Shown piece by piece: positions 9,177 through 40,893 of a stretch of DNA of 43,823 bases. Location: positions 1 to 43,823 of the forward strand of contig MHFI01000017.1 in NCBI GenBank assembly GCA_001804125.1, read 5' to 3'. The translations under genes and the position numbers were made by a program. This DNA is from Omnitrophica bacterium RIFCSPHIGHO2_02_FULL_51_18. Its GTDB lineage: Bacteria; Omnitrophota; Gorgyraeia; 2-02-FULL-51-18. Positions within the stretch are counted from its first letter, which is position 1. Each line of letters starts with the position of its first letter. The notes under the pieces are model-generated. The model did no database searches. It was not told the DNA's origin and saw only the letters and a list, made by a program, of their open reading frames with translations.

Positions 9177-9620
9177 TTAAGTTGCCGATACCGGCTTGAC
9201 AAACTCCCACATCAAATCTTCCACCAGCGTGACCAGGCTTACCACGGGTTTTCCCAACTCATCCGCCTGATACACATGGATCCTGACTTCCAAAGGGTCT
9301 GTGCCTTCGATCACCTCCCGCTCAATGCGCCACGGCACCCCGTTGACGGCCAGCGGCGGCTCTTCGAGCGGCGGCAAGTAAACATTGCCCGTTTCCCTGA
9401 GACGCGTCTTGGATAGATTCAGGTTGATCATTCTCTCCATTTCAGATTTGGCCAAGTTCATTGCGGTGATGAGCTCCACCGAATCGGCGGTCGCGTAAAT
9501 CGAATGGTTGAAAAGCTGGCTCACCGGAATGAATAAAACGGCCACGACCGCCAGCGTCATCAAAATCTCTACGAATGTAAACCCACGGATGGAAAAACGT
9601 GTCATTCTGTTAAAATACAT
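9177..9620 (-). CDS. Type II secretion pseudopilin, GspI-like
   Basis: This 147-residue protein has a type III (prepilin) signal: a short basic leader ending in Gly, then FTFVEILMTLAVVAVLF with Glu at mature position 5. It should be cleaved by prepilin peptidase and assembled into the pseudopilus. The remainder is a small alpha/beta domain, in the size range of GspI or GspH. Its ATG overlaps the previous gene by 11 bp. A second in-frame ATG at 9605 would give a more typical 8-residue leader. The exact subunit assignment (I or H) is uncertain. Confidence 0.8.
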   Translation of the reverse strand: MYFNRMTRFSIRGFTFVEILMTLAVVAVLFIPVSQLFNHSIYATADSVELITAMNLAKSEMERMINLNLSKTRLRETGNVYLPPLEEPPLAVNGVPWRIEREVIEGTDPLEVRIHVYQADELGKPVVSLVTLVEDLMWEFVKPVSAT

Positions 9621-9957
9621 TGTACTGAAGTTGAAGTTTTTTCTTGATGCTGTTCACGGTCCCGATGGACGTTATCAGCGATTCCCTGAAATCAAACCAA
9701 ACCGTATAGGTGCCGTCTCCGAGCGGGACCGGCCCCAGTATTTCATCCAAGCTCTCCTCGGCGCCAGCCCTGGCCCTCAAAATATAAATGGCCTCCGCGA
9801 TTCCGGCCTCCGCGAGATACCGCGCCTTCGTCTCATCCAGCACTTTGTTGGTAGACAGGTTCACGGAAGAGACAAGCTCGATAAGGCTGGCACCTATCAG
9901 CGCAATCGTGAACATGATGATGACGACCGTGATGAGTGTGACGCCGCGCTCGTTCAT
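9610..9957 (-). CDS. Minor pseudopilin, PilX/GspK-like (no Glu5)
   Basis: This 115-residue protein has a 5-residue leader ending in Gly (MNERG), then VTLITVVIIMFTIALIG. Thr replaces Glu at mature position 5. Loss of Glu5 is characteristic of GspK, the tip subunit, and the N-terminus resembles PilX family proteins (ARYLAEAGIAEAIY is typical). It is much shorter than GspK (about 300 aa), so it may be a reduced tip pilin. It overlaps both neighbours, by 4 bp on the 5' side and 11 bp on the 3' side, which indicates coupling. Confidence 0.75.
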   Translation of the reverse strand: MNERGVTLITVVIIMFTIALIGASLIELVSSVNLSTNKVLDETKARYLAEAGIAEAIYILRARAGAEESLDEILGPVPLGDGTYTVWFDFRESLITSIGTVNSIKKKLQLQYNVF

Positions 9958-10457
9958 TCCACGAAAAATACGAGGCTGGGCTGGTTTGCGAGAATTTCTT
10001 CGGAATCCTTGTATTTCCCCCTTAAGACAACGGTGCCCGTCGAGCCCCGGAGCGTCAGCAAACCGTCGCGGCGGTTGTGTATGGCCAAATCGGAGCCCTC
10101 AGCCGGCGCCGCGGTGCCAAAGATGAGCGGGTCCACGGTCAATCGGGAGGCAATCGTACCGGCCAGCGTCAAGGATTTCACCTCAAAGGTTTGGGACACG
10201 TCGACGGCGGCATCTTGGGTATTGATCAAAACATCATCAGCGCTGGTCGGCACAGCCGTCGGCAGCCAGTTGTCCTCGTCAAACCAGCTTGCGCCGTCTC
10301 CGGAAGCGTTCCACGTCTTTTCAGCCGCTTGAACCGATACGCAGGAAAAGAGCACCCAGCACGTCATTCCCGCGAAAGCGGGAATCATGCAAAGTTTTGA
10401 TCCCCGCCTGCGCGGGGATGACAACGTTTGAGATTTGAAGCACCAACGCTCGCTCAT
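9954..10457 (-). CDS. Exported beta-rich protein whose signal peptide contains an in-frame REP repeat
   Basis: This 167-residue protein starts 3 bp after the GspJ-like stop and overlaps the next pseudopilin by 4 bp. The mature part contains TWNASGDGASWFDEDNW and a VPTSADDVLI phrase, like the start of parallel beta-helix surface proteins. Its family is not recognised with certainty. Residues 12-32 are the translation of a 60-bp repeat (10363-10422), giving the tell-tale peptides SPRRRGS and IPAFAGMT. Removing exactly those 20 codons leaves MSERWCFKSQTL joined to CWVLFSCVSVQA, a normal signal peptide. The present protein probably still enters Sec, because basic and hydrophobic stretches remain. 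It is likely cargo or a filament-associated protein. Confidence 0.7.
   Translation of the reverse strand: MSERWCFKSQTLSSPRRRGSKLCMIPAFAGMTCWVLFSCVSVQAAEKTWNASGDGASWFDEDNWLPTAVPTSADDVLINTQDAAVDVSQTFEVKSLTLAGTIASRLTVDPLIFGTAAPAEGSDLAIHNRRDGLLTLRGSTGTVVLRGKYKDSEEILANQPSLVFFVE
10363..10422. repeat. 60-bp double-hairpin REP-like repeat (family A), copy 1
   Basis: Two 8-bp hairpins lie in tandem: ATTCCCGC-GAAA-GCGGGAAT, then ATCCCCGC-CTGC-GCGGGGAT. The whole unit is bounded by GTCAT and ATGAC. The same unit recurs at 35019-35079. This copy is inside the coding sequence of the exported protein at 9954-10457 and is exactly 60 bp, so the frame is kept. Confidence 0.95.
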
Positions 10458-10460
10458 ATT

Positions 10461-11663
10461 TTACGGCCTCACAAAAAGACCGGCGCCTTTCATGGTCATC
10501 TCATTCACGATGAATTCCACGTCTCCCTCCAATAACACGGTATCTTCCACATCCTCATCATCGTCATAATCATAAATTCCTTCAGAATCCAAAATCTTGA
10601 GGTTCACGCCCAGGTCGACCGTCGTGCCCGGAGTGTCCGTATAAACAGGTGTCTGCGGCGGGTACTCGACGGTGACCCTCCTGACCTTCGGCTTGGTATC
10701 TCCAATCTTTTCAAACTCCACCCGGAGACGCCAAATCTTGCCCACGCGCGGCACCGCCATCACGTCTATTTCGTCATTGTTCGATACCCCCGAAATATTG
10801 GTGATTAAAAGCGTGTGAATATGCTTGCTGTCGGCGATCGGGATCTTCAGGCCTCTCTTCAGCATCAAATAGCCTGTCCTCATCGGCGCATTGCGCAGGC
10901 TCACAAAACTCTTGAGCACCTGGGTGCGCTCGTTCACGCGCGCTTCCAGCAGCACTTCAATCCCCGTAATGAGCTGAATGTCGCCGGAGTCCACCCAGTC
11001 ACGGTCCGTGAGAAGCTCATTTGAAGTTGTGAAATAGCTTAGCGCCATCTTGGTTATTTGGACACCAAAAAAATTTTGGGAAAGTGACTCTTTGCCCTCC
11101 GGGCCTTCTATAAAAACTTCTTTTGCGTCCGACTCCCAGTAAATCTTCCGGATCACATCCGGTTCGGCCTTGGCGTCCGGGTGATAAATAAACCTGAGTT
11201 CTCCTCCCGGCGATAGGGACAGGCCGAGCTTCACCTGTGAGGTATTCACGTCCCTGAACTCCACCAGGATCACCGGCGCCAGTTTCCAATCAGTGAGCCC
11301 CGAGGGCTTCGCCTGCGCAATAGGCACCGAAGCGCCCGGTTTCACGCGCCGCTCCAGCCCGTAAATAAAATTGGGTCCCTCAATCCTGTGCGTGTTGTCC
11401 ACCCACGGCGGCACAAATTCGATCCGTTCCTTGCCGGCGGCGATCATCTCCAAGCTGTCCTTCAACCCGAATTGTCCCGGGTTTCCCACAATGAGTTTGT
11501 CCATGGTATCCGATAACACCTTCTGTAAGCTAAGTTCGTCCCTTGAATAAGACCAGCTCTCGAGCGCGCTGTTCATGCAATAATAAATCGCGCCCGTGAT
11601 AATCACCACGATAACGATCGCGATCAAAAGCTCAAGGAGCGTATAGCCGCTATTTTTTGCCAT
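10461..11663 (-). CDS. Type II secretion pseudopilin, GspJ-like, with large C-terminal domain
   Basis: From the ATG at 11663 (400 aa) the protein begins MAKNSG, then YTLLELLIAIVIVVIITGAIYY with Glu5, a clear prepilin signal. The globular part is about 370 residues, roughly twice the length of typical GspJ (about 200). It includes beta-rich segments and an acidic run near the end (YDYDDDEDVED) that could bind calcium. The start overlaps the upstream gene by 14 bp; an in-frame start further upstream is less likely because it precedes the prepilin leader by 11 residues. It probably forms part of the pseudopilus tip complex. Confidence 0.8.
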   Translation of the reverse strand: MAKNSGYTLLELLIAIVIVVIITGAIYYCMNSALESWSYSRDELSLQKVLSDTMDKLIVGNPGQFGLKDSLEMIAAGKERIEFVPPWVDNTHRIEGPNFIYGLERRVKPGASVPIAQAKPSGLTDWKLAPVILVEFRDVNTSQVKLGLSLSPGGELRFIYHPDAKAEPDVIRKIYWESDAKEVFIEGPEGKESLSQNFFGVQITKMALSYFTTSNELLTDRDWVDSGDIQLITGIEVLLEARVNERTQVLKSFVSLRNAPMRTGYLMLKRGLKIPIADSKHIHTLLITNISGVSNNDEIDVMAVPRVGKIWRLRVEFEKIGDTKPKVRRVTVEYPPQTPVYTDTPGTTVDLGVNLKILDSEGIYDYDDDEDVEDTVLLEGDVEFIVNEMTMKGAGLFVRP

Positions 11664-13968
11664 GCTCCCGTTTTTCCGAAGGCGGCTCCAAATCATCTTT
11701 TGATTCGAGCAGCATCAGCGCGCCGATGCCGCTCTTGCCGACACGGCCGAACGTGACAGTGCCTGCCTTGATTTTAAATCCGGCGCCCGCGCTCGGCGCA
11801 ATCGTGACGGTTTCAGCTTCGGTATCGCCGATCACGAGCCTCGCCAAACCGTTGCGGAACAATATGGGTTTTCCGGGCGAGCTTAGGAAAACGCTGTTGT
11901 TCGGGTCCGACTCTTCAAAAAAGATTTGAATGATGAGACTGTTTTCTGAGATGATTCTCTTGCCTTTTTCGTCCACAAGCTGGATCTGCACTTCCGTCGT
12001 GCCTATCGGTGCCGCGCCGGAAATAACTTCGATCGTCGCCTGCTTCACCGGGAAAGGCTCACTCTCGGCCGCCAGGCTGTAAGCGGCGGAAGAAGTCTTC
12101 AAGACATAATTTCCGGCGGATTGCGCCGAGAAAAGAATCGACTTCTGCCCCGCATCCGGCTCGGCGAATGAGTAAGCGGAAGGAATGTCCAACGCGGGCG
12201 TCGAAATCAATTCCACGGCTCCTTGAAAATTTCTTATAGGCTGTTTATTCGCGTCGTTCACCGAAATCACGGCCTCAATCGACTCGCCCGTATAGTAAAA
12301 ATCCCGTCCCGAGGGCGGGGCTATGACTTTAACCGAAAGTGCGGAGGGGCCGAAGCTGATGTCGCCGCTTTCGCCTTTTTGAGTGGGCTTGGATGCGTCC
12401 TGCACTTCCATCCGGATCGAGCCCCAACGATCGTAACTGACGTCGACGGATGCCTGGCCGCCTTCAAACGCCGCCGCCTCAAGCTGGGCGGGTACCAGCG
12501 CGCCTGAGGTGTTTGCGGGGCTTACGGCGATCCTCTGGAGGGTCGCCGGTCCTTTGTAGTTAGGTGTCACGTTTCCACCGGCATCAAGCGCGGCGAACAA
12601 GACTGAAAAAGGCCTCGATACCACTTGCTGAAGCGCTTGGGGCTCCACGCTGAATTGAGCAGGCACAAATTCAATCTGGCCCGAGATGCCCTTCTTCGTG
12701 CTGTCGCTTTGGTCCTCCGCCATAATCTGGATGCTCCCGCAATCGGAATAGCTGACCGGCAAGTCCAAAATGCCCTCCGCGAATCCGGCCGCATGGGTGG
12801 GCGAAATCTGCCTTGAGCCCGCTGCGGGTTCTGTGTATTTGACGGATAGGTTGACAGCCCCGCCGTAAAAACGGTCCGGGTTCCCCTCGGCATCCTTCGC
12901 GATGATCTGAACGCTGAACGGCACGCCCGCCACCTGGGGCGATATCGCGGAAATCTCAAAAAACTGGCCTTCGCCCGCCACATTGAGCTGTTGCGAGGCA
13001 TCGTCCCAACCGCGATCGGGCGTTTCCTGAGCCGTGATCACAGGCTTGCCCTCACCGGAATCCTTGTAATAAAAAATGGCCTGCTGGGCATCTTTCGGAA
13101 TAATCACCTGTGTAACGGGATTCCAGTCATTCTTGTCCAGCGAGAACTGGCCGCCTTCGGAGCTGGATCGTAAATCTACACTCAGGTTTTCCCAGGCCGT
13201 TTGGGGTTCCGCGTCCGCATTCTGGATCTGCAGTGTGATGCTATTGGAAGCGACATTTTTCACGAGGTTTTGAGCGGCCGTAATAAATGCCAGGCGCTGC
13301 ACAAAATGCACGGTGATCTCGTCCACATAGGTATCGCCGGTTTGTGAAACCGCATAAACGCCGTCGAATCCCAGCTTATTGATCGAATTGACGGACGGAT
13401 CGATAAAGCGAAGGTTGTCCTTGTCCGGCACGAAAGGGATCTTGGGGGTGGAGGCAGGTGAGATATAAATCCCGTAAACATGGCCCGTGAAATCAACTCT
13501 CAACAGCACCCGGTACCAGGTGCCGGGATCGAATGTTTTTCCGGTTTGAATCCATGCGGTCCCGTCAGCGGCAAGGATATTTCCCGAAGTGTCAAAGCAT
13601 ACGGCGCCGACGCCTCCCGTAGGCGGGGCGCTCGCCTGATTTCCCAAGCCGGGCCTTACGACCATTTCAATCCAGGTGGGCGTCAAACCCCCGTAGGAGG
13701 CACTGCGGTTCACTTTTACAGGGACCGCGGCGTTCACGATCTTGAGGGACTTGCCTTCTCCGCTGAATGTCACATTGGATTTTGCGATCGCGTTTGAAGG
13801 ACTGCCGACGGCCACTTGCCAGGAATCAATGCCGTCAATCGTCACCCCATCCTGCCTGGCGTCAAAAGTTTCCTGAAACATGTCCGCCGACCAAACGTCG
13901 CGCACACCCGTCATCACAAGCCACAACCCCAGGCCGGCTAAAACGCATAAGCATCTCTTTCTTAACAT
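11650..13968 (-). CDS. Large exported protein with LamG-like and Ig-like repeat domains
   Basis: This 772-residue protein starts at the ATG at 13968; a TTG six bases earlier is possible. A signal peptide covers about 1-28. Residues 30-225 look like a concanavalin/LamG-type beta sandwich (WIEMVVRPG, GTWYRVLLRVD, VDEITVHF). At least three ~120-residue beta repeats follow, with recurring phrases such as PFSVQIIAKDAEGN, PFSVLFAALDAGGN and IEAVISVNDANKQ, each followed by a Tyr/Phe-x-Gly-x-Ala turn. A further beta domain ends the protein. It is first in the pseudopilin operon, so it is a good candidate for the secreted substrate or a surface adhesin of the machine. No enzyme motif is seen. Confidence 0.7.
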   Translation of the reverse strand: MLRKRCLCVLAGLGLWLVMTGVRDVWSADMFQETFDARQDGVTIDGIDSWQVAVGSPSNAIAKSNVTFSGEGKSLKIVNAAVPVKVNRSASYGGLTPTWIEMVVRPGLGNQASAPPTGGVGAVCFDTSGNILAADGTAWIQTGKTFDPGTWYRVLLRVDFTGHVYGIYISPASTPKIPFVPDKDNLRFIDPSVNSINKLGFDGVYAVSQTGDTYVDEITVHFVQRLAFITAAQNLVKNVASNSITLQIQNADAEPQTAWENLSVDLRSSSEGGQFSLDKNDWNPVTQVIIPKDAQQAIFYYKDSGEGKPVITAQETPDRGWDDASQQLNVAGEGQFFEISAISPQVAGVPFSVQIIAKDAEGNPDRFYGGAVNLSVKYTEPAAGSRQISPTHAAGFAEGILDLPVSYSDCGSIQIMAEDQSDSTKKGISGQIEFVPAQFSVEPQALQQVVSRPFSVLFAALDAGGNVTPNYKGPATLQRIAVSPANTSGALVPAQLEAAAFEGGQASVDVSYDRWGSIRMEVQDASKPTQKGESGDISFGPSALSVKVIAPPSGRDFYYTGESIEAVISVNDANKQPIRNFQGAVELISTPALDIPSAYSFAEPDAGQKSILFSAQSAGNYVLKTSSAAYSLAAESEPFPVKQATIEVISGAAPIGTTEVQIQLVDEKGKRIISENSLIIQIFFEESDPNNSVFLSSPGKPILFRNGLARLVIGDTEAETVTIAPSAGAGFKIKAGTVTFGRVGKSGIGALMLLESKDDLEPPSEKREHGKK

Positions 13969-30713: not shown

Positions 30714-30734
30714 AAAAGGGGACAGCGCCCTTTT
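30714..30734. terminator. Short hairpin with T-tract (family C, copy 1) between antitoxin and dnaJ
   Basis: AAAAGGG and CCCTTTT pair around a 7-nt GACAGCG loop. It starts three bases after the antitoxin stop, so it looks like a bidirectional intrinsic terminator for toxin-antitoxin pair 1. It also occupies the place where the dnaJ ribosome-binding site should be. Related hairpins are at 31599, 32250 and 32993. Confidence 0.55.
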
Positions 30735-33106: not shown

Positions 33107-34993
33107 TCACTTATCGTCCTCTACCTTATACTCCGCGTCCACAACGTCATCTTTGCCTTCGCCGCCGCTGTCTTGAGCCTTTGAGGAACTTGCGTTTTTA
33201 TACATCTCTTCCGCGATCTTGTGGGAGGCCTGCATCAAATCCTCGGAGGCCTTCCGAATCACCTCGGCATCCTTGCCGTCAAGCGCTTCCTTAGCCTTCG
33301 AGACGGCTTCCTCGGTGTTTTTCTTATCGGGCTCGGAGACTTTGTCTCCCAGCTCCTTGAGGGATTTTTCGACGGAATAGATTAAATTGTCGAGATGGTT
33401 TCTGGCCTCCACCCGTTCTTTCTTTTTCTTATCCTCCTCCGAATGCGACTGGGCCTCCTTGGTCATTTTTTCGATTTCTTCCTTCGAGAGGCCGCCGGAG
33501 CTTTCAATGCGAATCTTCTGCTCCTTGCCGGTGCCCATGTCTTTCGCTGACACGTGCACGATGCCGTTGGCATCGATGTCAAACGTGACCTCGATTTGCG
33601 GCACCCCGCGCGGCGCAGGCAGGATCCCCACCAAATCAAAACGCCCAAGCGTGCGGTTTCCTTCGGCCATCTCGCGCTCGCCCTGCAGTACATGGATTGA
33701 CACCGCGGTTTGATTGTCCGCAGCCGTCGAAAACACCTGGCTCTTCTTCGTGGGAATCGTCGTGTTCCGCTCGATAAGCTTTGTACAGACCTCTCCTAGC
33801 GTTTCGATGCCGAGCGACAACGGCGTCACATCCAAAAGAAGCACGTCCTTCACGTCCCCGACAAGCACCCCTGCCTGGATCGCGGCGCCCACCGCCACGA
33901 CTTCATCGGGGTTCACGCCCTTGTGCGGCTCTTTTTTGAAAAGTCGGCGCACCACCTCCTGCACTTTGGGCATGCGTGTCTGGCCGCCGACCAGCACCAC
34001 TTCATCGATATTTTCGGCTTTAAATTTTGAGTCTTCCAGCGCTTTTTTGCACGGTAGGATCGTCCTTTGAACCAGATCATCCACGAGTTGCTCAAGTTTT
34101 GCGCGCGTGAGTGACACCGTCAGGTGCTTCGGGCCGCTGGCATCCGCGGTGATAAACGGAAGGTTTATCTCCGTCTGCTCATTGGACGAAAGCTCGCACT
34201 TCGCCTTTTCCGCCGCCTCCTTCAAACGCTGAAGCGCCATACGGTCTTTTCTTAGATCAATTCCTTGAGACTTTTTGAATTCATCAGCCAGCCAGTCCAT
34301 GATGCGCTGGTCGAAGTCATCGCCCCCGAGATGCGTGTCACCGTTCGTGGAGCGCACTTCAAAGACACCGTCGCCGATTTCTAAAATGGAAATGTCGAAA
34401 GTGCCGCCACCCAAATCATAGACGGCGATCTTCTCGTTTTTCTTTTTATCCAAACCGTACGCCAGCGCGGCGGCCGTCGGTTCGTTGATGATCCTTAAGA
34501 CCTCAAGCCCCGCGATCTTGCCGGCGTCCTTCGTGGCCTGTCTTTGGGCATCGTTAAAATACGCAGGCACCGTGATCACGGCCTTCGTGACCTTCTGGCC
34601 CAGATAATCCTCGGCGGTTTGCTTCATCTTCTGCAGGATGGTCGCCGAGATCTCAGGCGGTGTGTACTCTTTTCCGCCGGTCTTCACGCGCAGATCACCT
34701 CCCGATCCTTCGATCACCTTATAAGGCACCAGTTTCTCCTCCGCCAGCACTTCCGCGTGCCTTCTGCCCATAAACCGCTTGATCGAGAAAACCGTGTTCT
34801 CGGGGTTCGTGATCGCCTGCCGCTTGGCCGCCTGTCCCACAAGCCGCTCGCCGGACTTCGTGAAACCCACCACCGAAGGCGTCGTACGGCCTCCGTCAGA
34901 GTTTGCGATCACGACCGGGTCCCCGCCTTCCATAATCGCCACGCAGGAGTTCGTCGTGCCTAAGTCAATGCCTATTACTTTTTCCGCAGCCAT
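33107..34993 (-). CDS. dnaK: Chaperone DnaK (Hsp70)
   Basis: This 628-residue ATP-dependent chaperone is full length. The ATPase domain has [32 protein letters not shown], and [13 protein letters not shown]. The linker [15 protein letters not shown] and the substrate-binding domain follow. The C-terminus ends in the conserved [13 protein letters not shown]. The start at 34993 has AGGAGG eight bases upstream. It follows grpE with a 91-bp gap occupied by a REP-like repeat. Transcription should come from the CIRCE-controlled hrcA promoter. Confidence 0.98.
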
Positions 34994-35018: not shown

Positions 35019-35079
35019 GTCATTCCCGCGAAAGCGGGAATCTTATTTTTCACATGATCCCCGCCTACGCGGGGATGAC
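35019..35079. repeat. 61-bp double-hairpin REP-like repeat (family A), copy 2
   Basis: It has the same two hairpins as copy 1 at 10363-10422. One loop base differs (CTAC for CTGC) and the central linker is AT-rich. It lies between grpE and dnaK, where its stems could act as an mRNA processing or stability site. Confidence 0.95.
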
Positions 35080-35084
35080 ATGTT

Positions 35085-35555
35085 TTATTCTTTCTTCTTT
35101 GCGATCCTCACCCAGCTTGGCCGGATAAGCCGCCCATTTAAAAGGTAGCCTCTCTGAATCTCATCGACCACTTTTCCATCTTCCATCTCACTCGTTTCCA
35201 GGACCGCAACCGCTTCATGAAACTTCGGGTCAAAATCCTGCCCGACGCTTTTTACGACCTCAACACCGTGCTCTTCCAGTATCTTATGAAGCTCGTCCTG
35301 GGCGATCTTAAGCCCCTGCTTCACTTTTTCGGGGTCGTGACCTTCCGAGAGACTCGCCATCGCCCGGTCAAAGTTATCCACCACCGGCAAGATCTCGGCC
35401 AGCAGCGCTTCATTCGCGTACCTGATCGCGTCGAGCTTATCACGATCCAGGCGCTTCTTGGTATTTTCAAACTCCGCGCGCAACCGCAGAATCTGGTCCC
35501 AATAATCTTTCACTTTATTCTCAAGCGCCTCAATGGAACGCGGATCTTCGGTCAT
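35085..35555 (-). CDS. grpE: Nucleotide exchange factor GrpE
   Basis: GrpE releases ADP from DnaK. I chose the ATG at 35555 (156 aa): it overlaps the hrcA stop by four bases and follows GGAGAG, while upstream starts would translate hrcA sequence. Residues 1-60 form the long dimer helix (ALENKVKDYWDQILRLRAEFENTKKRLDRDK). The C-terminal beta domain has FDPKFHEAVA and VDEIQRGYLLNGRLIRPSWVRI. It lies in the order hrcA-grpE-dnaK. Confidence 0.95.
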   Translation of the reverse strand: MTEDPRSIEALENKVKDYWDQILRLRAEFENTKKRLDRDKLDAIRYANEALLAEILPVVDNFDRAMASLSEGHDPEKVKQGLKIAQDELHKILEEHGVEVVKSVGQDFDPKFHEAVAVLETSEMEDGKVVDEIQRGYLLNGRLIRPSWVRIAKKKE

Positions 35556-36367
35556 AATCTCTCCGCCACTTCGCTCATGCCGTCCGCGACACAATCCACG
35601 ACGGCCATCACCTTGGAATACCTCATGCGAGTCGGGCCGACCACGGCCACGCCGCCGATCGGCATTCCACCCAAATAACAATCCTTCACCACAAGGCTCA
35701 CGTCCTCAAGCTGATCCATGGAATTCTCGGTGCCGATATGAACGTGGACACCCTCCTCTTCCAGATCCTTCGAGAGAATCTGAAACAAGCCGTATTTTTC
35801 ATCAAACGCCTGCAACAGAAGCCTTATTTTCCGGGCGTTCTGAAATTCCGGTTGTTCAAAAATCCTGAAAGTGCCCTCGATAAAAAGCTCGGGCTCCTCT
35901 TCAAAGAAATCCATGAGCTTCTCGGCCTCCACAAGCTCCTCCAGCAAATAATTCAAAAATGACACGCGCCTCAGGCTTCGGATGTAAATCAACGCCGCGT
36001 TGGCGGTCAGTTCCGAGATGATCTTTGAAACTCTTCCTACCATCCCTTCAATGGTCTTGACTCTCAGAATCTCTTCCCGTATCCACTTCTTCTGGCGCAG
36101 CGGCAGTTCCTCTTTCTCCATAAGGCTGTCCACATAATACCGGTATCCCTTGTCCGTCGGCACACGGCCCGCCGACGTATGGGGCTGCTTAAGATAACCC
36201 TGTTCCTCAAGGTCGGCCATCACAGTCCGTATGGAGGCCGGGGAGAGTCCCAGATCATATTGCTTGGACAGGCTCCTGGAACCCACCGGTTCTGCCGTTT
36301 CGATGTAGGACTCGACGATATACTCAAAGATCTTATCTCTCCTTGAGTTTATCCCCTCCGTGTGCAT
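35552..36367 (-). CDS. hrcA: Heat-inducible transcription repressor HrcA, short form
   Basis: HrcA binds CIRCE and represses the class I heat-shock operon. The N-terminal winged helix is intact (VESYIETAEPVGSRSLSKQYDLGLSPASIRTVMADLEEQGYLKQPHTSAGRVPTDKGYRYY). The C-terminal GAF-like part has IGTENSMDQLEDVSLVVKDC and GGVAVVGPTRMRYSKVM. At 271 residues it is about 70 shorter than typical HrcA (about 340). The missing part lies in the middle, between LTANAAL and FRIFEQPEF. The reading frame is unbroken, so this is a deletion form and not a frameshift. A perfect CIRCE lies 14 bp upstream. Confidence 0.93.
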   Translation of the reverse strand: MHTEGINSRRDKIFEYIVESYIETAEPVGSRSLSKQYDLGLSPASIRTVMADLEEQGYLKQPHTSAGRVPTDKGYRYYVDSLMEKEELPLRQKKWIREEILRVKTIEGMVGRVSKIISELTANAALIYIRSLRRVSFLNYLLEELVEAEKLMDFFEEEPELFIEGTFRIFEQPEFQNARKIRLLLQAFDEKYGLFQILSKDLEEEGVHVHIGTENSMDQLEDVSLVVKDCYLGGMPIGGVAVVGPTRMRYSKVMAVVDCVADGMSEVAERL

Positions 36368-39474: not shown

Positions 39475-40784
39475 CCAAGCCTCCCAATCAATGTCTCGTC
39501 CGCCACGCCGGTGATCCGTACGGCATGAAATTCCCCACAAATACCTCCACTGGATGCGGCGACCACTCTTTTAAAAGTTCTCGTGCGGCCGGCATAACGA
39601 TTATCCCCCTTTTTGGTGCGCGATTCAAACAGGACCTCGATCGTTTTGCCGATCAGCGCCTGATTTTTTTTAAGATTCACGGCCTTCTGAGCGGCCAATA
39701 AAACCTGAAGGCGCCTGTTTTTTTCTTCGGAAGTGACGTCATCATCGAGCTTAAGCGCTGGCGTGCCGGGCCTGGGTGAATAGGTAAATATAAACGCGCT
39801 GTCGAACTCGGCTCTTTCGACCAGTGTGAGCGTTTCCAGAAAATCGACTTCAGTCTCGCCGGGAAAACCGACAATCAAATCCGTGGTCAGACTGCCTTCC
39901 GGCACAAAACGGCGGTATTCTTCGATCTGTTCAAGATACCACCGAATCGTATGCTCTCGCTTCATACGACGCAAGACCCTGTCGGAACCCGACTGCACCG
40001 GCAGATGTAGATGCTCGCAAACCATCGGCAAATCCCGCATGGCTGTAAAAAGCCGCGTGTGCGCATCCTTCGGGTGGCTTGTGATAAACCGGAGTCGGGA
40101 AATACCGGGCGCGTGTATTTGGATTTTTTCCAAAAGCGCCGCAAAATCAATCGGCTCATCCAGCCCTTTGCCATAAGAATTGACATTCTGGCCCAAAAGC
40201 ATCACGTCCTTGAAGCCGCGGCGGTCCAAATCCTTTATTTCCTTTAGAATGCTCTCGGATCTTCTTGAGCGCTCCACGCCGCGGGTGTAGGGCACAATGC
40301 AGTAAGTGCACCGGTGGTCACAACCCTTCATGATCGTGACATAAGCCTTCATTGCGTCGCCGCGGTGATGGATGTCCTCCAGAGAGTATTCCTCATCCAA
40401 ACGGTCTATCGCTAGACGCGGCGAGCGCCTTTCCTCGATGGATTCGACCAGGTCCGGCACCTGGTTCAGGTTGCCGGTGCCGCACACCAGATCAATCTCA
40501 GGATTTTTTTTGAAAAAATTGTCTCCGTGTTCCTGCGCCATGCAGCCGAGAATACCGATGATAAGGCGCGGGTTTTTCTCTCTTAGTTTTAGAAAATCGC
40601 CCATGCGCCCGAACACCTTCTGTTCGGCGTGGTCACGCACGCTGCAGGTGTTGTAGAGGACCACGTCCGCATCTTCGATGCTCGGCGTAGTCTGGAACCC
40701 TCGGCCGATCATGAGGCCTTCGACGGCCTCCGAATCGCGTTCGTTCATTTGACAACCAAAAGTCTGGAGAAACAGCTTTTTCAT
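39471..40784 (-). CDS. miaB: tRNA-2-methylthio-N6-dimethylallyladenosine synthase MiaB
   Basis: This radical SAM methylthiotransferase acts after MiaA on A37 of tRNA. The ATG at 40784 (437 aa) starts MKKLFLQTFGCQMNERDSE. The N-terminal cluster is held by Cys11, Cys47 and Cys81, and the radical SAM cluster by Cys155, Cys159 and Cys162 (CDHRCTYC). A TRAM domain closes the protein. Unusually, the DNA encoding LQTFGCQ recurs upstream in both orientations, and two partial copies of a MiaB N-terminus lie upstream (40858-40893 and 41641-41690). The start codon and its AGGA sit in the loop of a possible 15-bp hairpin. Confidence 0.96.
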   Translation of the reverse strand: MKKLFLQTFGCQMNERDSEAVEGLMIGRGFQTTPSIEDADVVLYNTCSVRDHAEQKVFGRMGDFLKLREKNPRLIIGILGCMAQEHGDNFFKKNPEIDLVCGTGNLNQVPDLVESIEERRSPRLAIDRLDEEYSLEDIHHRGDAMKAYVTIMKGCDHRCTYCIVPYTRGVERSRRSESILKEIKDLDRRGFKDVMLLGQNVNSYGKGLDEPIDFAALLEKIQIHAPGISRLRFITSHPKDAHTRLFTAMRDLPMVCEHLHLPVQSGSDRVLRRMKREHTIRWYLEQIEEYRRFVPEGSLTTDLIVGFPGETEVDFLETLTLVERAEFDSAFIFTYSPRPGTPALKLDDDVTSEEKNRRLQVLLAAQKAVNLKKNQALIGKTIEVLFESRTKKGDNRYAGRTRTFKRVVAASSGGICGEFHAVRITGVADETLIGRLG

Positions 40785-40876
40785 ACTATAAAATTCCTCA
40801 TTCCAGACTTTTGGTTGATCCTGAGCGATCGCCGAGCGCGAGAAGCGAGCCGAAGGGACAACCAAAAGTTTGGAGA
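40753..40876 (-). promoter_or_regulatory. Possible alternative-pairing mRNA leader of miaB
   Basis: Read on the minus strand, segment 1 (40857-40876, CTCCAAACTTTTGGTTGTC) can pair with segment 2 (40803-40817, CAACCAAAAGTCTGG) at 14 of 15 positions. Segment 2 can instead pair perfectly, 15 of 15, with segment 3 (40753-40767), which is miaB coding sequence. The second pairing would enclose the miaB Shine-Dalgarno site and start codon in a 35-nt loop. Between segments 1 and 2 lies a GC-rich repeat-like stretch. It may be a switch, or only the remains of a repeat insertion. Confidence 0.4.
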
Positions 40877-40893
40877 TAGGGGGTTTTACTCAT
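40858..40893 (-). pseudogene. Relic of a miaB 5' end (12 codons)
   Basis: An ATG at 40893, overlapping the stop of the 57-residue gene by four bases, opens MSKTPYLQTFGC, a very MiaB-like N-terminus. The frame then runs into the GC-rich repeat and stops after 31 codons. It looks like an earlier miaB start that was separated from the gene body. The match to the real miaB is 19 of 20 bases over LQTFGC. Confidence 0.5.

Follow-up and report, generated by a model that had tools for sequence, protein, structure and literature searches.

Introduction

REP sequences of the CGTC-1 family carry a CGTC tag, often TGTC, an 8-bp stem starting with AT, a 4-nt loop and an unpaired CCA tail (Di Nocera et al. 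2013, PMC3733652). According to what that paper says of these elements, CGTC REPs have no dedicated transposase, and intragenic CGTC REP dimers coding for 20-30 aa have already been described. The repeat RPE-6 of Rickettsia is also classed as CGTC-1.

The locus described here is located in a window of 43,823 nucleotides, the whole contig (C17) of a 1.53-Mb, 69-contig Omnitrophota MAG; the related genomes used for comparison are Candidatus Omnitrophota MAGs. A REP dimer of the CGTC type occurs in frame within the predicted signal peptide of a small gene. We propose, with a probability of about 0.75, that the dimer inserted in the leader of this gene, is translated, is cleaved off with the leader and is near neutral for the host.

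Structure and boundaries of the REP dimer

Two inverted 24-nt REPs of the CGTC-1 type, separated by a 12-nt spacer, occupy positions 10363-10422 of the window, in the signal-peptide region of the host gene. Read directly, the 60-nt element is GTCATTCCCGCGAAAGCGGGAATC-ATGCAAAGTTTT-GATCCCCGCCTGCGCGGGGATGAC, a head-to-head dimer of 24+12+24 nt in which ATGCAAAGTTTT is the spacer and GATCCCCGCCTGCGCGGGGATGAC corresponds to 10399-10422. The half-REP GTCATTCCCGCGAAAGCGGGAATC (10363-10386, plus strand) codes on the gene strand for ...IPAFAGMT, and the half-REP GTCATCCCCGCGCAGGCGGGGATC (10399-10422, minus strand) for SSPRRRGS. Both show a 4-nt loop and an 8-bp stem whose first two pairs are A-T (ATTCCCGC GAAA GCGGGAAT and ATCCCCGC GCAG GCGGGGAT). 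The tag is TGTC on one side and CGTC on the other; across copies, 94-96% of the ends have T or C before GTC. The tail begins with C, and CCA is frequent in other Omnitrophota copies, not in those of the own genome. As RNA, the dimer was predicted to fold into a single hairpin of -37.5 kcal/mol (z -7.4).

Four half-REP matches were observed in the window against none in 200 first-order Markov windows, and the own genome yielded approximately 40 against none for a reversed-pattern control; the pattern is therefore not attributable to chance. Judged from its sequence, the element matches a REP dimer of the CGTC-1 family: the stem, the loop of 4 nt, the tag (TGTC/CGTC) and the head-to-head arrangement of the halves all agree.

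The base just outside GTCAT is, at both ends, T (79-83%) or C in most copies. Given this conservation, the repeat unit may comprise 62 nt instead of 60, and the outer T/C base may be part of the element or of the target. The 60-nt core equals the net insertion only if this base belongs to the target.

The REP family and RAYT-like genes in the genome

Many of the half-REPs of the own genome occur as inverted pairs, and the majority lie outside genes. The dimers form two size classes, of about 53-61 nt and 129-142 nt; in the latter, further repeats of other kinds are nested between the REP ends, and among 99 relatives such long-spacer dimers were found in three genomes only. The second dimer of the window, 61 nt long (35019-35079), is intergenic, as a sequence-only reading of this DNA had stated: it lies between grpE (35085-35681, minus strand), with its stop at 35085, and dnaK (33107-34993, minus strand), with its start at 34993.

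Three RAYT-like genes occur in the genome, one of them within the window (41709-42401, minus strand). This REP-associated tyrosine transposase-like gene scored 76 bits against the NCBIfam model REP_Tyr_transpos, slightly under the cut-off of 80, and is flanked by inverted repeats of its own (AACTGGGACAGTTCACTTATTAAT and ATTAATAAGTGAACTGTCCCCAGTT), which are not CGTC-type REPs. No CGTC-type half-REP was found near the three genes when up to three substitutions were allowed, and no transposase dedicated to the CGTC-type dimer was found in the genome, the RAYT-like genes being without such a REP. The dimer is presumably mobile.

Other repeats were noted in the same DNA. Direct repeats GAATCGCGTTCGTTCATTTGACAACCAAAAGT at 40732-40887 and 41642-41673, 910 nt apart, lie near the RAYT-like gene together with a further GACAACCAAAAGT repeat, and three copies of a dispersed palindromic repeat of the AAAAGGGGACAGCGCCCTTTTTC type are located at 30714, 32251 and 32994. 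Elsewhere in the genome, an alanine racemase (L055, C69:25376) carries a single in-frame REP in its N-terminal domain (THDSRLRGNDN). A PyrK-like gene (L042, C38, 457-1590, plus strand) appears to have taken up repeats in frame at three places, belonging to two families or more (SRHSVATKSPKT...RFAQDDVS, DSRHSEATLRLRS and GSVIDPRLRGDD), and its protein includes a single in-frame REP.

The host gene and its operon

The dimer at 10363-10422 lies wholly within 9954-10457 (minus strand), a gene for a predicted exported protein of 167 aa for which Pfam and NCBIfam gave no family. Direct reading of the sequence confirmed the earlier statement that the repeat is in frame: on the gene strand it starts, at 10422, with the last base of codon 12, and its 60 nt make 20 codons free of stops. 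The predicted signal peptide covers codons 1-44, insert included, and the mature protein would begin at AEKTWN.

The gene is located in a minor-pseudopilin operon. Upstream from it lies a minor pseudopilin-like gene of 411 aa (10461-11696, minus strand) with an N_methyl / GFxxxE motif and orthologues in L010-L013 and L048-L052. Downstream are a PilX/GspK-like minor pseudopilin (9610-9957, minus strand), a weak assignment below curated cut-offs, which overlaps the host gene by 4 nt, and a prepilin-like gene (9177-9620, minus strand; GFTFVEIL).

The start codon ATG (10455-10457, minus strand) stands 3 nt past the stop of the upstream gene, and no other ATG occurs from the in-frame stop up to the insertion point; the stop-to-stop frame opens NMSERW..., one codon ahead of it. 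A Shine-Dalgarno-like GAGG (10467-10470, minus strand) precedes this ATG by 9 nt, and the relative L013 carries the same GTGAGGCCG Shine-Dalgarno sequence.

Homologues and the probable pre-insertion leader

Homologues of the host protein were found in other genera, in G011, G055, G002 and G012 (46-50% identity) and in BS750m-G14. A scan of genome contigs gave five orthologous loci, four on contigs already found and one new (L052). The sequence-only reading had suggested looking for the gene without the 20 codons, and all five homologues indeed lack these residues; the alignment covers the mature part, and the homologues keep the same upstream neighbour gene. Two of their leaders, MKKILCFFITLAVIFICARADA/APKTW in L052 and MKTMKKTLLMILGLILAGAFFSQAIA/ADKAW in L013 (a slash marks the predicted cleavage site), are ordinary and 22-26 aa long.

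In the host gene, 135 nt separate the upstream stop from the predicted cleavage site, and 75 nt once the 60 nt are removed. In relatives without the insert this distance is 83 nt (L013 and L052) and 91 nt (L011). This length argument is independent of the choice of start codon.

Without the element, the flanks rejoin as MSERWCFKSQTL-CWVLFSCVSVQA, the junction that had been given before, and the empty site would read MSERWCFKSQTLCWVLF.... The claim that the pre-insertion state can be read off directly is too strong: the length, 75 nt, is close to the 83-91 nt of the relatives, but the sequence itself is reconstructed and the unit removed may be 62 nt. Since no ATG lies past the insertion point, the start of the pre-insertion gene would have been ATG 10457. 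To call the rejoined leader a textbook signal peptide was an overstatement: its n-region has a net charge of +1, and its best 10-residue hydrophobicity is 2.17 compared with 2.85-3.54 in five relatives.

That the repeat is ancestral and was lost in the relatives, or that the leader was built de novo from the repeat and not interrupted by it, is scarcely credible. A precedent for a leader of repeat origin exists in the Yersinia gene YPO1552, where, as reported in PMC2229807, a new signal peptide is made up in part of a MITE. Against such an origin here, the repeat is missing from five of five homologues, two of them with ordinary leaders, and rejoining the flanks yields a plausible leader, similar in length.

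Probable translation through the repeat and predicted fate of the leader

The points that bear on the status of a translated REP are a start codon upstream, a frame that is kept and an insert that is absent from homologues, and all three were found here. Because ATG 10457, the only pre-insertion ATG, is intact and retains its Shine-Dalgarno sequence, translation from this ATG through the repeat is probable, and the added residues most likely belong to the signal peptide.

Initiation could have moved to one of two in-frame ATGs inside the repeat, at codon 24 (MIPAFAGMTCWVLFSCVSVQA) and codon 31 (MTCWVLFSCVSVQA), so that the element would be an untranslated 5'-UTR repeat and the open frame upstream accidental. 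Di Nocera et al. (PMC3733652) caution, in their treatment of N-terminal REPs, that many are extragenic, with the true start downstream. Leaders starting at codon 24 or 31, however, have no K/R ahead of the hydrophobic stretch, no well-placed Shine-Dalgarno sequence was seen before either codon, and codon 24 adjoins the loop of the -37.5 kcal/mol hairpin. ATG 10457, on the other hand, retains both its Shine-Dalgarno sequence and the operon spacing, and the ancestral gene had no other ATG to start from. An untranslated repeat is thus unlikely. The sequence-only reading had named a homologue start downstream of the repeat, which would make the region non-coding, as a finding that would overturn it; a start there or within the repeat is disfavoured, though the internal ATGs do exist.

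In the favoured reading, the CGTC-type dimer would have inserted in the predicted Sec leader of the small exported protein, at the n/h junction. With a net gain of 60 nt and the frame taken, no stop would arise, and the old start would read through, adding SSPRRRGSKLCMIPAFAGMT to give the leader MSERWCFKSQTL-SSPRRRGSKLCMIPAFAGMT-CWVLFSCVSVQA/AEKTW. In the host frame the REP would supply a basic stretch and then a mildly apolar one, a composition fitting the n-region of a signal peptide.

Leaders were scored for hydrophobicity, charge and an AxA motif only. By this scoring, the leader with the insert has the core CWVLFSCVSV, a predicted AxA-type site VQA/AEK and an n-region net charge of +5 instead of +1. 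Signal peptidase I would cut off the whole 44-aa leader and leave the mature protein unchanged, and the insertion would persist as near neutral. Since the added residues precede the predicted AxA-type site, the mature protein is expected to be as in the relatives. The earlier claim that the event altered an exported protein is thus not supported as worded: the mature part aligns with the homologues, and no alteration of the exported protein is visible.

Dimers in other predicted leaders

Within this genome there is one further case (L044, C49:18620-18760). A 141-nt in-frame REP dimer, equal to 47 codons, lies in the same phase in a predicted signal peptide, the leader MMWKR[47 aa]GLLSLLYLSPAFA/AGSDN, ahead of a protein matching a GH2 TIM-barrel.

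Exact dimers occurred in 18 of the 384 Omnitrophota genomes surveyed, and 52 loci were fetched and read through. Further leader cases were L115 (G033), L140 (G088) and L099 (G017). Outside leaders, nine translated dimers lie in protein bodies (e.g. histidine kinase L101 and M3 peptidase L137) and two at the N-termini of cytosolic enzymes (L089 and L026). Six loci (L107, L119, L125, L126, L131 and L138), with no start before the element or an obvious start after it, were counted as 5'-UTR and left out. Leader dimers make up 5 of the 16 judged translated, whereas leaders account for 3.3% of coding residues by a crude rule (binomial P about 1e-4), a small number of hand-called cases that includes the index case as given, from which selection removes body insertions and in which most body ORFs have no Pfam match. 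An empty site for two intragenic dimers of G140 was sought at the DNA level in same-family genomes; the flanks were unmatched and only other REP copies were found.

These data also bear on a less benign outcome, in which the insert weakens or blocks export, the gene is heading to inactivation and the open frame has survived by chance, one length in three keeping the frame. The pre-insertion leader was already weak, and some translated dimers depart from the length rule: multiples of three were found in 9/16 compared with 14/47 of the others (P = 0.056), only a marginal excess among translated dimers. The frame kept by 60 nt is a 1-in-3 event by chance. The mature part, however, is intact and conserved to the C-terminus, the 4-nt overlap with the next gene is retained, and the second leader of the same genome took its 141-nt dimer in frame. 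Decay of the gene is, in our judgment, highly improbable.

Pseudopilin-operon leader regions of the relatives (L010, L012 and L013) are lengthened by unrelated dispersed or tandem repeats. In G002 a dispersed repeat with 16 genomic matches lies in the leader regions of two genes downstream in the operon, in G012 a pseudopilin leader carries one with 45 genomic matches, and in G011 a tandem array of 7-nt units lies in a leader region of the pseudopilin operon. The prepilin start may possibly fall inside the repeat, e.g. MTNEQG/FTLLEL in L013, and for this reason these operon repeats are supporting, not decisive, for a leader bias. From the 5/16 dimers and the unrelated repeats of G002 and G012 we suggest, tentatively and at slightly less than even odds, that in Omnitrophota mobile palindromic repeats have repeatedly found an in-frame refuge in cleaved leaders (Sec signal peptides and perhaps those of prepilins).

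If coding sequence tolerates mobile palindromic repeats best in cleaved leaders, an insertion there would be invisible in the mature protein. This would help to explain the in-gene repeats kept by repeat-bearing small genomes and the differences in leader length between orthologues. As to annotation, start calls for exported proteins and prepilins in such genomes can run through repeats.

Comparison with known systems

Intragenic REPs and RPEs, and a MITE in a signal peptide, are already known, and the apparent excess in leaders is the part worth following. A literature search of limited reach found no report of REPs located within signal peptides and none of REPs from Omnitrophota, which is a weak negative.

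The element resembles CGTC-1 REPs, as the family is presented in PMC3733652, in its stem, loop, YGTC tag and head-to-head arrangement, in being mostly intergenic and sometimes intragenic, and in having no dedicated transposase adjoining it. It differs in its host, Omnitrophota not having been seen among those named in that presentation, in the own-genome tail, which is C and not CCA, and in the insertion in a predicted cleaved Sec leader.

With REPINs mobilised by RAYTs, which are built of GTAG REPs, it shares two inverted REPs with a short spacer, and RAYT-like genes are present in the genome. The features of a RAYT-mobilised REPIN were not found: the tag is YGTC, not GTAG, and no such REP lies beside the three RAYT-like genes.

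Rickettsia RPE-4/RPE-6 and RPE-1 are likewise small palindromic mobile repeats, tolerated in frame in many protein genes (PMC3733652, PMC2229807). Their host is a different one, and the descriptions in these two papers report RPEs from conserved protein genes and from N-termini, without singling out signal peptides. Closest as to location is the Yersinia RU-2/YPAL MITE of YPO1552 (Delihas 2007, in PMC2229807), also a mobile repeat that provides part of a predicted signal peptide. According to that account the MITE helps to form a new leader, whereas here the existing leader of a conserved gene appears to have been interrupted.
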